Shown piece after piece: positions 27,574 through 31,754 of a stretch of DNA of 64,000 bases. The stretch covers positions 1-64,000 of the forward strand of contig JAOMWM010000002.1 of NCBI GenBank assembly GCA_028357285.1, given 5' to 3'. Positions within the stretch are counted from its first letter, which is position 1; every line of letters begins with the position of its first letter. Origin of the DNA: Schleiferiaceae bacterium (lineage in GTDB: Bacteria > Bacteroidota > Bacteroidia > Flavobacteriales > Schleiferiaceae). The notes beneath the pieces were generated by a model, which was given only the letters and a program-made list of their open reading frames with translations, was not told where the DNA came from and ran no database searches. A program made the position numbers and the translations under genes.

Positions 27574-30500
27574 TTACTCTTTTATAACCCAGCCCTGTTG
27601 TAGCAGCGGTTCGGCCTTTTTGTATTTCACATTGCGCTCTTCACCCGATTGCATATTCACAATGGTCACTGCATCGTTTCGTCCGTAGGTTTTACCCGTG
27701 TTCACTACCGGTGATGGCTTTGGACGCGGCTGTTGTGGCGCCCTGCCTGACGGGGTTGAAGATCCATCGGCCCCAGGGTGACTCTCTTGAAGCTTTGGTT
27801 GTTTGGGTTGTGAAGCCGGAGCTTGACGCACACTGCTAGGGTCATTAGCCGGAAGATCGCCTCGGAATAAGAAGCTTACGATTTCCTGATTCACACGAGA
27901 AACAAGCGACTTAAACAATTCGAAAGATTCAAATTTGTAAATCAATAATGGATCTTTCTGCTCATACACAGCGCCTTGTACACTTTGACGTAAATCATCC
28001 ATGGCACGTAAATGCTCCTTCCATTGGTCATCAATAATGGCAATAGAAATGCCTTTCTCAATATCCGATATGAGCGATTGACCAGAAGAATTCATCACCT
28101 CGTCAAGTACCGAGGTCACCTGCAAAGCTTTGTTCCCGTCCGTAATAGGTACGAGAATTTTGTCAAAATTATTCTTAGGGTCTTCTACGACCTGCTTAAA
28201 TACTGGTAATGCAGCCGTAGCTATTCGATTCCCTTTTTCGCGATAGAAGGTAGTTGCTTGACTGAACAATTCATTTGCTAAATCATCAATAGCGCCTGTA
28301 TTGAATGCCTCAGTATCTAGATTAGGTTCAAAAGCAAAAGTTCTAAAGAAGTCTAATTTAAACCCTTCAAAATCTTTTGCCGGCTGGTACCCTTCTACTA
28401 GATCCGCCAAAGTATCGTACATCATATTGGCGATATCCACCTTGATACGCTGACCGCTCAAAGCATTCGCACGACGTTTGTAAATAACAGTACGCTGACT
28501 GTTCATTACATCATCATATTCTAGTAAGCGTTTACGTGTTCCGAAGTTGTTCTCTTCGACTTTCTTCTGTGCACGTTCTATGGATTTACTGACCATACTG
28601 TGCTGGATCACTTCTCCTTCCTCAAGGCCTAAACGATCCATGAGACCCGCAATACGCTCAGAGTTAAATAAGCGCATGAGTTTGTCTTCAAGCGAGACGA
28701 AGAATTGAGAAGAACCCACATCACCTTGACGTCCGGCACGTCCGCGTAACTGGCGGTCTACACGACGGCTGTCGTGACGTTCGGTACCAATAATCGCTAG
28801 ACCACCTGCTGCCTTTGCTTCATCACTTAGTTTGATATCCGTACCACGACCTGCCATGTTCGTTGCAATGGTTACCATGCCAGGCTTCCCTGCTTCAGCT
28901 ACCACCTCCGCTTCTTTCTGGTGCATCTTAGCGTTTAAGACTTGATGCGGTACTTTACGAATCTTCAGTGCACGACTCAAGAGTTCGGAAATTTCTACGG
29001 ATGTAGTACCTACCAAAATAGGACGTCCGGCATCGCGCAGCGATGCAATCTCCTCAATTACCGCATTGTATTTCTCGCGATTGGTTTTAAAAACCATATC
29101 GTCACGATCATCACGGGCAATAGGACGATTCGTTGGAATCACCACTACTTCTAGTTCATAGATCTCCCAGAATTCGCCGGCTTCCGTCTCCGCCGTACCC
29201 GTCATCCCGGCAAGCTTATGGTACATTCGGAAGTAGTTCTGTAATGTTATGGTCGCATAGGTCTGTGTTGCGGCCTCGATTTTTACATTTTCTTTTGCTT
29301 CAATAGCCTGATGGAGACCGTCAGAATAACGACGACCTTCCATGATACGTCCCGTCTGTTCATCGACAATTTTCACCTTGTTGTCCATGATCACGTACTC
29401 CGTATCCTTTTCAAATAAAGCGTAGGCTTTGAGTAGCTGGTTTACCGTATGAATACGCTCAGATTTCACTCCATAATCGCGCATGATCACATCTTTTTTC
29501 GCCGCCTTTTCCTCTGCGCTCAGTCCTGCATCTTCCAAGGCACTGAGCTCAGCAGTAATATCGGGCATAACGAAAAAGTCTTTTGCAGTATTTTTCGAGA
29601 TGAGATCGACGCCTTTACCACTCAGATCAATTTGATTGTTTTTCTCCTCAATGGTGAAATACATTTCCTCATCAATGAGTTTCATTTTCTTGCCTTGCTC
29701 TTGCATGTAATTAGCCTCCGTCTTTTGGAGCAGCGACTTCATACCGTCTTGGGACAAGAATTTAATCAACGGCTTCGATTTTGGGAGACCGCGGTAAGCC
29801 CGCAATAATTTCACGCCACCCTCTTCGGTATCGCCTTCACTGATCATTTTTTTTGCTTCGGTCAATTCTTTCTGAACCAATGCCTTTTGAGCCGTCATCA
29901 GTGCATCAACATACGATTTCAACTCATTGAACTGATGCTGATCGCCCTTGGGTGTTGGGCCGGAAATAATAAGCGGTGTTCGTGCATCGTCAATCAAGAC
30001 ACTATCCACCTCATCTACAATCGCAAAGTGGTGGCCGCGCGTCTGAACGCGATCTTCTTGACGGCGCGCCATGTTATCGCGCAAATAGTCGAAACCAAAC
30101 TCATTATTTGTACCGTAAGTGATATCGCTGTAATACGCTGCACGACGCTCTTCAGAATTCGAAGGGTGTTTGTCAATACAATCGATGGTCAACCCGTGGA
30201 AATTAAATACCGGAGCCATCCATTCGCTATCGCGTTTCGCTAGGTAGTCGTTTACCGTAACCACGTGTACCCCACGCTGCGGAAGTGCGTTCAAATAAAC
30301 GGGTAAGGTGGCAACTAAAGTTTTTCCTTCACCAGTAGCCATCTCCGCAATCTTTCCTTGATGTAAGACCGTTCCACCAATCAACTGGACATCATAGTGT
30401 ACCATGTTCCAGGTAATATCTCCACCTGCAGCCTTCCACGAATTTGAATAAATTACTTCATCCCCTTCTAGGGTAATATGAGCGTGTGTTTTTGCCAATT

Positions 30501-30903
30501 CTCGGTCCAATGCTGTCGCAGTGGCACGAACATCACCCGCATTAAAACGTCGGGCCGTCTCGCGCATCACACCAAAAGCTTCTGGATGTATAGCGCTCAA
30601 CACACCTTCAATCAATTCAAGTTCTTGTACGTCTAACGCTTCTATATCTTCGTACAACGGTTCGCGAGCATCGTAATCCTGTGTAGCGTCAATCTGCGCA
30701 TAGAGTGCATCCTTCGCTGCTTTTGTTTCAGCCGTCACTTCCGCGATGTTCGCTTTAAACGCAACCGTGCGTTCACGCAACTGATCATTGCTCATTGTCT
30801 TGAGCGCTGCATTGAATGCATTTACAGATTCTACGTGAGGCTGTAATTTTTTAAGATCGCGGTCACTTTTAGATCCCACGAGTTTGGATATGAGTTTCAG
30901 CAT
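27574..30903 (-). CDS. secA: Preprotein translocase ATPase SecA
   Basis: The 1109-residue motor that drives unfolded proteins through SecYEG. Walker A is MATGEGKT (about 188-195), with DEVDSVLIDDARTPLIISG as Walker B, and TNMAGRGTDIKL and RGRAGRQGD in the second motor domain. It is longer than the E. coli protein because of insertions common in Bacteroidota (for example about 345-430). The C-terminal zinc-binding tail seen in proteobacteria is absent: the end is YGRNDAVTIV...KYKKAEPLLQQGW, a Bacteroidota form without Cys. First gene of secA-transporter-rfbA-prenyl synthase. Confidence 0.97.
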   Translation of the reverse strand: MLKLISKLVGSKSDRDLKKLQPHVESVNAFNAALKTMSNDQLRERTVAFKANIAEVTAETKAAKDALYAQIDATQDYDAREPLYEDIEALDVQELELIEGVLSAIHPEAFGVMRETARRFNAGDVRATATALDRELAKTHAHITLEGDEVIYSNSWKAAGGDITWNMVHYDVQLIGGTVLHQGKIAEMATGEGKTLVATLPVYLNALPQRGVHVVTVNDYLAKRDSEWMAPVFNFHGLTIDCIDKHPSNSEERRAAYYSDITYGTNNEFGFDYLRDNMARRQEDRVQTRGHHFAIVDEVDSVLIDDARTPLIISGPTPKGDQHQFNELKSYVDALMTAQKALVQKELTEAKKMISEGDTEEGGVKLLRAYRGLPKSKPLIKFLSQDGMKSLLQKTEANYMQEQGKKMKLIDEEMYFTIEEKNNQIDLSGKGVDLISKNTAKDFFVMPDITAELSALEDAGLSAEEKAAKKDVIMRDYGVKSERIHTVNQLLKAYALFEKDTEYVIMDNKVKIVDEQTGRIMEGRRYSDGLHQAIEAKENVKIEAATQTYATITLQNYFRMYHKLAGMTGTAETEAGEFWEIYELEVVVIPTNRPIARDDRDDMVFKTNREKYNAVIEEIASLRDAGRPILVGTTSVEISELLSRALKIRKVPHQVLNAKMHQKEAEVVAEAGKPGMVTIATNMAGRGTDIKLSDEAKAAGGLAIIGTERHDSRRVDRQLRGRAGRQGDVGSSQFFVSLEDKLMRLFNSERIAGLMDRLGLEEGEVIQHSMVSKSIERAQKKVEENNFGTRKRLLEYDDVMNSQRTVIYKRRANALSGQRIKVDIANMMYDTLADLVEGYQPAKDFEGFKLDFFRTFAFEPNLDTEAFNTGAIDDLANELFSQATTFYREKGNRIATAALPVFKQVVEDPKNNFDKILVPITDGNKALQVTSVLDEVMNSSGQSLISDIEKGISIAIIDDQWKEHLRAMDDLRQSVQGAVYEQKDPLLIYKFESFELFKSLVSRVNQEIVSFLFRGDLPANDPSSVRQAPASQPKQPKLQESHPGADGSSTPSGRAPQQPRPKPSPVVNTGKTYGRNDAVTIVNMQSGEERNVKYKKAEPLLQQGWVIKE

Positions 30904-30932
30904 GAGGCTGTCAGATTCTTATAAATAGTCTA

Positions 30933-30940
30933 CAAAAATA
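30933..30940 (-). promoter_or_regulatory. -7 box (TATTTTTG) near secA
   Basis: The minus-strand TATTTTTG matches TAnnTTTG 29 nt before the secA ATG. There is no TTG at the expected -33 position. A small stem TACCC-TTC-GGGTA lies just upstream at 30949-30961. A second, better promoter lies at 31197-31229. Confidence 0.45.
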
Positions 30941-31028
30941 ATAGGTTGTACCCGAAGGGTAGACTTTTATGACTGCTAAAAAAGGGCCAATTCGAAACTT
31001 TCCGGCAAAAATGGACACATTGGCAGGG

Positions 31029-31089
31029 TGAAAATCCCTAAAAACGAAGGTTTAGGGCATAAAAAAAGGGGAATTTGGAAGGATTTTCA
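31029..31089 (-). promoter_or_regulatory. Alternative pairing that would break the terminator-like rod
   Basis: On the minus strand TGAAAATCC (31089-31081) is perfectly complementary to GGATTTTCA (31037-31029). Using it would take away the 3' inner arm of the rod. A separate 7-bp stem CCCTAAA/TTTAGGG (31036-31042 with 31051-31057) lies inside. Mutually exclusive pairings upstream of secA resemble an attenuator, but this is inference from base pairing only. Confidence 0.25.
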
Positions 31090-31193
31090 GGTGCTAAAAA
31101 TCGGCTCAGTAACACCTTGAAAACTCTGCCAAATAGCCCCTAGAACCTATCACAGAAGCATGAAAAGAAAGAACCACCAATCTTCACATACAG
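31061..31193 (-). ncRNA. Candidate small RNA or secA leader with terminator-like long hairpin
   Basis: This is an unproven RNA in the only long gene-free stretch (30904-31319). A consensus promoter reads leftward from 31229. From an expected start near 31193 there is a first hairpin (31189-31181 with 31168-31160), then a long rod: outer arms 31141-31129 and 31078-31067 (11 bp around a small internal loop), and inner arms 31123-31113 with 31093-31084 (10 bp, one bulge, 19-nt loop). The rod is directly followed by seven Ts (31067-31061 on the minus strand), as in a Rho-independent terminator. No open reading frame explains the region. Length would be about 130 nt. I do not recognise a known RNA family: SRP, RNase P and tmRNA signatures are absent, and 6S-like pairing of the two ends is not seen. 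Confidence 0.4.
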
Positions 31194-31196
31194 GGA

Positions 31197-31229
31197 CAAA
31201 TATATAACAAATTGTACTAAGTGTACAAA
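31197..31229 (-). promoter_or_regulatory. Consensus leftward promoter upstream of secA
   Basis: The minus strand has TTTG (31229-31226), a 21-bp spacer after TTG, then TATATTTG (31204-31197): a full -33/-7 Bacteroidota promoter. It would start RNA near 31193, about 290 nt before secA, and read through the candidate structured RNA. Confidence 0.55.
31212..31228. promoter_or_regulatory. Palindrome TTGTAC-N5-GTACAA over the leftward -33 box
   Basis: Perfect 6-bp arms, extendable by two positions with one mismatch. The right arm covers the -33 TTG of the leftward promoter, the usual place for a repressor. It also lies about 65 bp upstream of the ridA -7 box. The cognate regulator is unknown. Confidence 0.35.
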
Positions 31230-31290
31230 TAACACTAAGTTTTCTTTGAACCTGTTGCCATTTCATGAAGGGCTTCCCATGTGCATTCCC

Positions 31291-31298
31291 TATTTTTG
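31291..31298 (+). promoter_or_regulatory. -7 box (TATTTTTG) of the ridA-like gene and ileS
   Basis: TATTTTTG matches TAnnTTTG and ends 21 nt before the ATG at 31320. No TTG is present at -33. Confidence 0.5.
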
Positions 31299-31319
31299 CA
31301 GACTTAATAAAGAAGTGAT

Positions 31320-31754
31320 ATGGCCGATTCAAGCAAGATCTCAACCTCAACCGCCCCAAAACCAGTGGGTTTGTACCCACACGCCAGAAAAGTTGGCAAC
31401 TTGTTGTTCCTCTCAGGAGTAGGTCCTAGAACGGCGGGAAGCGATGCGAATGATAGCGGGGTTCCAGGATTGGAATTGGATCATAACGGCAATTTTAAAG
31501 CTTTTGATTTTGAAGCACAGGTCCACAGCGTTTTTGCAAACGTGAAGGCCATTTTGGAGGCGAGCGGTTCTTCTTGGGAGGAATTGGTCGACGTACAGGT
31601 CTTTCTAGTGGATATGAAGCGTGATTTTCACACGTTCAATCGCATCTATGCTGAATACTTTAAAGAGAACCAACCGTGCCGCACTACGGTGGAAATCAAT
31701 AGCCTACCCACTCCCATTGCCATAGAACTCAAGTGTATCGCTACTGTAGAATAA
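31320..31754 (+). CDS. RidA-family deaminase, probably 2-aminomuconate deaminase
   Basis: A 144-residue protein of the RidA/YjgF/UK114 fold. The conserved Arg that binds the carboxylate of the imine/enamine substrate is in CRTTVEINSLP, followed by IAIELKCIA. Compared with ordinary RidA it has the extra internal segment and the LFLSGVGPR and FLVDMKRDFHTFN features that I associate with 2-aminomuconate deaminases of the kynurenine meta-cleavage route, so I lean to that activity; generic imine deamination remains possible. It lies 4 bp upstream of ileS and would share its transcript, an association that does not itself suggest tryptophan breakdown. Confidence 0.75.
   Translation: MADSSKISTSTAPKPVGLYPHARKVGNLLFLSGVGPRTAGSDANDSGVPGLELDHNGNFKAFDFEAQVHSVFANVKAILEASGSSWEELVDVQVFLVDMKRDFHTFNRIYAEYFKENQPCRTTVEINSLPTPIAIELKCIATVE

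Follow-up and report, generated by a model that had tools for sequence, protein, structure and literature searches.

The DNA stretch analyzed here (the window, 64,000 nucleotides) contains secA on the minus strand and ridA on the plus strand, and the spacer between them carries on the minus strand, in this order, TTG-N21-TATATTTG, a hairpin, a linker, a rod and seven Ts, the first of which also pairs in the rod (Table 1). The leftward promoter, the 5' hairpin, the rod and the T run described in the original prediction were all confirmed at these positions. The -7 box TAnnTTTG occupies positions -12 to -5 in Flavobacterium psychrophilum (PMC9723704), and by this rule the RNA would start at 31192 and, ending with the T run, measure about 132 nt. 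The motif TTTG[TG]ACAC around the -33 element is kept in all 22 genomes that carry the locus. Another short element, TTGGnnnTTTTTTAG, is conserved in 22/22 genomes between the small RNA terminator and the secA promoter; in the window it occupies 30976-30990 (minus-strand letters TTGGCCCTTTTTTAG).

Table 1. Features of the secA-ridA spacer in the window and the evidence for each.
Feature	Coordinates	Strand	Evidence
secA	27574..30903	minus	Pfam SecA_DEAD, SecA_SW, SecA_PP_bind
secA's own promoter, -7 box TATTTTTG	30933..30940	minus	22/22
Small RNA gene, about 132 nt (predicted)	31061..31192	minus	start inferred from -7 box, end = T run
Intrinsic terminator T run, seven Ts	31061..31067	minus	at least six Ts in 22/22
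Rod, 25 pairs, also terminator stem	31067..31141	minus	predicted fold
Rod apical loop, second candidate seed	31096..31110	minus	TGAGCCGATTT in 20/22; L018, L020 differ
Linker, candidate seed	31142..31157	minus	invariant in 22/22
5' hairpin of small RNA, 12 pairs	31158..31191	minus	predicted fold
Small RNA -7 element TATATTTG, Bacteroidota sigma-A type TAnnTTTG	31197..31204	minus	TAnnTTTG in 22/22
Operator palindrome TTAGTGT-N7-ACACTTA, AraR/NrtR type	31218..31238	minus	identity 0.960, 22/22 RNA loci
Small RNA -33 element TTG, centre of operator	31226..31228	minus	sequence
ridA's own promoter, -7 box TATTTTTG	31291..31298	plus	21/22; L014 differs in last base
ridA	31320..31754	plus	Pfam Ribonuc_L-PSP 5.5e-27

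The distribution of the small RNA region was determined by a DNA search of 60 relatives, which found it in 22 of the 25 genomes of the same genus, own genome included, and gave only short weak matches outside the genus. The region is missing from three members (G006, G019 and G024, with completeness of 74, 77 and 88%), whose assemblies do not include the start of secA either, indicating that the RNA is present in 22/22 genomes with the locus assembled. The secA start was present in 11/11 genomes tested from other genera. A covariance model (R1) used with stricter filters found the small RNA in 22 of 88 family genomes and in one of 19 genera, and its core 21-mer TTCTGTGATAGGTTCTAGGGG occurred in a collection of 84,980 genomes on 21 contigs, matching the other 21 genus members. 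The host genus belongs to the Flavobacteriales, its MAGs being labelled Schleiferiaceae, Cryomorphaceae, Flavobacteriales or Bacteroidetes; among the records found, these small-genome bacteria carrying the small RNA are represented by metagenome assemblies only.

Conservation along the locus was expressed as mean pairwise identity over the 22 sequences in one alignment. The operator (0.960, 18/21 columns invariant), the -7 box of the small RNA (0.989, 7/8 columns) and the 5' half of the RNA (0.980, 61/68 columns) were highly conserved, whereas identity was 0.575 in the 13-base spacer 31205-31217 and 0.611 in the segment that separates the T run from the secA promoter; the 3' half of the RNA reached 0.853. 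The pattern of identity thus matches the functional parts. In the same alignment the coding starts of secA (84 bases) and ridA (19 bases) were 0.699 and 0.766 identical, respectively, and over 31061-31193 95 of 133 columns were invariant in the 22 genomes. By these figures the small RNA exceeds the adjoining coding starts in conservation, which falls at the T run.

The 146-nt stretch 31200-31055 folded at -43.6 kcal/mol, compared with -31.05 +/- 3.57 for 200 dinucleotide shuffles (z -3.52), and one of the 200 shuffles was as good, so that the region proposed to be structured is indeed more stable than its shuffles. RNAalifold applied to all 22 sequences (alignment A2) returned 39 pairs, with 99.1% of cells paired over 19 distinct rows, and each sequence folded alone gave essentially the same predicted shape. 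The conserved pairing sought in the spacer of related genomes was found: two-sided changes occurred in 5 of the 39 pairs, against 1.5 +/- 1.0 in shuffles (2/500 shuffles reached 5), and in nine cells, a number reached by 0/500 shuffles, while slid controls showed at most two such pairs. All five pairs are in the rod, where 98.9% of cells were paired and where the stem flanking the apical loop varies with compensation. The 5' hairpin had 99.1% of cells paired and zero two-sided changes. The pairs that never vary, 9 of 12 in the hairpin and 14 of 25 in the rod, neither support nor oppose pairing. The linker was unpaired in 22/22 folds of the 132-nt RNA and became partly paired when upstream or downstream bases were added to the folded stretch.

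The original prediction had also stated that the known RNA families checked by eye do not fit this region, and this view was upheld by Rfam 15, which gave 0 matches at gathering score in the 64 kb. At E values up to 10 the small RNA region returned matches of chance level only, the best by score being mir-875 with 17.3 bits (gathering score 84). The small RNA represents a family new to the catalogue, although RNAs of its general kind are known. Since the RNA is rod-like, comes from the Flavobacteriales, and 6S-Flavo (RF01685) gave no match in the own genome at E up to 10, a 6S RNA was the first hypothesis. RF01685 matched 58 of 148 genomes of the order at E up to 0.001, with G000 and G009 among the listed genomes without a match, and it lay between zapA and rny in both family genomes read (G032 and G027). 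A family 6S model (R2), built from seven family 6S sequences, placed a 6S RNA upstream of rny in 18 of 20 rny loci of the genus, the other two loci stopping at contig ends, and found none in the window at E up to 1 or in six small RNA loci at E up to 10; the own genome assembly gave no rny match. Although the small RNA resembles 6S-Flavo in being a small structured Flavobacteriales RNA with a long rod, it has no Rfam match and the 6S RNA of the genus sits elsewhere, between zapA and rny, and a 6S identity was rejected. Rfam's own 6S-Flavo model gave no match to the genus 6S in L062 at E 0.01, so the identity of the genus 6S rests on R2 and on location. The genus has, by these two lines, a diverged 6S RNA in the spacer upstream of rny (L056, L057, L059-L070, L073 and others). 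The gene names pfkA, gapA, zapA and rny were confirmed with Pfam.

The original prediction had left two readings of the spacer side by side, a small RNA with a promoter and a terminator of its own and a secA leader or attenuator, and the results agree with the former and not with the latter. If the rod were a conditional terminator read through into secA, the orientation of the RNA toward secA would be explained, as would a perfect 9-bp alternative pairing (31089-31081 with 31037-31029) that had been proposed to break the rod. This pairing is indeed present in the window, but it is not conserved, being perfect in 2/22 sequences (the window and L004), 8 bp long in one more and at most 5 bp in the other 19. 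Moreover, secA has a -7 box of its own in every one of the 22 genomes, identity is as low as 0.611 between the T run and the secA promoter, and the RNA strand has no conserved ATG leader ORF, all of which make a secA leader very unlikely. A small protein or a dual-function RNA is more improbable still. The RNA strand does contain a TTG-started frame (LVVLSFHASVIGSRGYLAEFSRCY in the window) that is open in 22/22 sequences, with 24 codons in 17 of them and 20 in L015, and that extends beyond the T run in four (L019, L021-L023); on the other hand, its length and C-terminus vary, no ATG is conserved (in-frame ATGs occur only in L011, L015 and L016), and over the first 17 codons the third positions (16/17 invariant) are as constant as the first (17/17) and second (16/17), unlike the evolution of a coding frame. 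An ATG mini-ORF on the plus strand, MKRKNHQSSHTG, was rejected, as only 8 codons of it remain in L015 and L016 and a single codon in L020. The promoter and the intrinsic terminator of the small RNA are both conserved at sequence level. Conservation, covariation and the retention of the T run give good support to the first of the two readings. The segment 31192-31061 is thus, as far as can be judged from sequence, an independent terminated small RNA and not a secA leader.

The strongest clue to the function of this RNA is a feature of its promoter that the original prediction did not mention: the -33 box is part of a palindrome of 21 bp, TTAGTGT-N7-ACACTWA. The strict pattern TWAGTGTN7ACACTWA had 64 sites in the 25 genus genomes, and the reversed pattern had 0. 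Coordinate comparison assigned 25 of the 64 to a position beside a Nudix regulator gene (one per genome), 22 to the small RNA and 17 to other places, and the operator was present at 12/12 regulator loci scanned. Wherever the loci were assembled, strict operators were present in the upstream region of the regulator and pfkA (25/25) and at the small RNA (22/22). The own genome has three strict sites, located at the small RNA, at pfkA/regulator and, in L114 2950 (G000:C56), at a gene whose product has IgGFc-binding and CHU_C domains. Seven of the 17 sites elsewhere were read, from five genomes (G000, G004, G008, G009 and G017). In L118 3001 (G017) a strict site directly follows the stop codon of a putative recA, upstream of a TonB receptor gene.

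Beyond the genus, the weak DNA matches L024-L026 corresponded to the operator just upstream of the promoter, and L028 also has an operator-like site. In the sister genus (G032) a palindrome of the same kind is flanked by genes for a phosphofructokinase and a Nudix-type regulator, and a weaker copy precedes a SusC-like gene. The position of the operator relative to the core promoter varied: at the small RNA the -33 TTG is at its centre, in the pfkA loci read it covers the -33 region and ends five bases before the -7 box, in L119 it overlaps the first two bases of the TAnnTTTG match, and in L114 and L116 it lies between the TAnnTTTG match and the likely ATG. Positions that differ in this way over the elements of the core promoter suit a repressor.

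In the own genome the operator lies between pfkA-gapA and the gene of a 229-aa regulator with NrtR_WHD (3.1e-24), AraR_C (1.2e-08) and NUDIX domains, which is followed by a SusC-like and a SusD-like gene. The closest solved protein by sequence is BtAraR (5bs6, 3.9e-35), which likewise combines a Nudix-like domain with a winged helix, the winged-helix stretch DKRNFRK being identical in the two proteins. As described in PMC4666351, BtAraR recognizes a 21-bp motif and has arabinose as negative effector. Its crystal DNA, GCAAAAGTGTTACTTTTACACCCATGC, carries AGTGT-N7-ACAC, which agrees in half-sites and spacing with the operator found here. BtAraR, however, controls arabinose operons in Bacteroides, whereas the present operator is found at pfkA/regulator and at the small RNA; the portion of PMC4666351 available contains no word starting with sRNA or pfk. 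Regulators of the AraR/NrtR type were seen between pfkA-gapA and SusC/SusD-like genes (L081 1402 and L120 2437 = G000:C23) and beside pfkA in the sister genus (L024). The pfkA-gapA and SusC/SusD-like neighbours suggest a sugar or a glycolytic signal as the ligand, and the gene order suggests a putative Nudix-type repressor of central glycolysis, of which the literature matches listed contain no description.

Base-pairing with mRNAs was explored through the two candidate seeds. In the own assembly (74% complete), 11-mers complementary to both seeds matched only the small RNA gene itself. In 12 of the 25 genus genomes, 11-mers of the loop and the linker revealed no conserved exact target, the non-self matches being unshared or shared by close species only: the 12 non-self loop loci included two groups of three, each shared among near relatives (86-96% identical), and none of the nine non-self linker loci were alike. 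Seven of the 12 loop loci were read, two being deep inside coding sequence and five antisense to coding sequence. Duplex energies with the pfkA, regulator and susC starts were not consistently better than those of single-base shuffles, and an extreme duplex z value for the L079 susC was discarded as an artefact of Ns.

Given that no conserved target was found, base-pairing is proposed by analogy with GibS of Bacteroides thetaiotaomicron, a sugar-responsive RNA that pairs near start codons. In the available part of PMC7366714, GibS is described as intergenic, about 145 nt long, conserved within its genus, with a potential terminator, a highly conserved 5' part and expression tied to simple sugars, features which the present RNA shares or may share; the likeness is drawn from descriptions. 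No transcriptional regulator of GibS is named in that text. Unlike the small RNA, with its 5' hairpin and a rod of 75 nt, GibS is relatively unfolded and its 5' seed is single-stranded. Similarly, the small RNA Rfp18 of F. psychrophilum is structured and has wide conservation within its genus, but this is another genus of the Flavobacteriales and the predicted targets of Rfp18 include metalloprotease mRNAs, a comparison again drawn from description (PMC9723704).

Two further explanations concern the protein that reads the palindrome and the partner of the RNA. Further Nudix-type relatives, a second or a third, occur in 19 of the 25 genomes of the genus (a single one is found in the own assembly), so that this putative regulator is matched to the operator by its position next to the site and by the example of AraR. 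A palindrome of this type could be read by more than one dimeric factor, and these further relatives would be candidates; yet the site adjoins the regulator gene in 25/25 genomes, the sister genus G032 also has it between its phosphofructokinase gene and the regulator, and its half-sites and spacing are those given for the AraR crystal DNA, which makes recognition by a factor other than the Nudix regulator improbable. It is somewhat easier to imagine, though still unlikely, that the RNA binds a protein (RNA polymerase, an RNA chaperone or another sponge) rather than pairing with mRNAs. The 5' half, paired bases included, is nearly invariant, exceeding what pairing with a few mRNAs would appear to need, and the seed and duplex searches gave no target; against this, the RNA is not the 6S of the genus, which R2 located in the rny loci and not in the window.

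The best joint explanation of these data, to which we give a probability of about 0.72, is a small regulatory RNA gene that is repressed together with pfkA by the Nudix-type regulator and acts in trans. A dimeric NrtR/AraR-type Nudix repressor would bind the 21-bp palindrome over the -33 box and hold the sigma-A-type promoter off. In the presence of its ligand, presumably a sugar or a sugar-derived metabolite, the small RNA would be made along with pfkA-gapA, and it would then most likely adjust other mRNAs in trans through the invariant linker and the apical loop, as GibS does. More tentatively, the regulator may have only two operators that occur in every genome with the loci assembled, the one upstream of itself and pfkA and the one at the small RNA. 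Through the small RNA a glycolysis switch of local reach would then gain post-transcriptional effects across the genome, and, judging from the literature matches, no small RNA would have been placed under a sugar repressor of the Nudix type before.

Neither this small RNA nor any AraR/NrtR-repressed small RNA in the Bacteroidota is described among the open-licence PMC matches listed. Among the matches listed for Schleiferiaceae and small RNA none names the family, and among those for secA, Flavobacterium and sRNA (titles and abstract starts) none deals with this locus; the papers matched for NrtR, sRNA and Nudix concern, by title, Pseudomonas or type VI secretion.

The locus offers a new RNA family tied to a named repressor type that has a solved homologue and a defined operator, so that the proposed circuit of ligand, repressor, RNA and targets can be tested step by step. 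If the proposal is correct, a Nudix-type repressor would be shown to act through an RNA, and sugar-linked small RNAs like GibS would extend from gut Bacteroides to small-genome Flavobacteriales.
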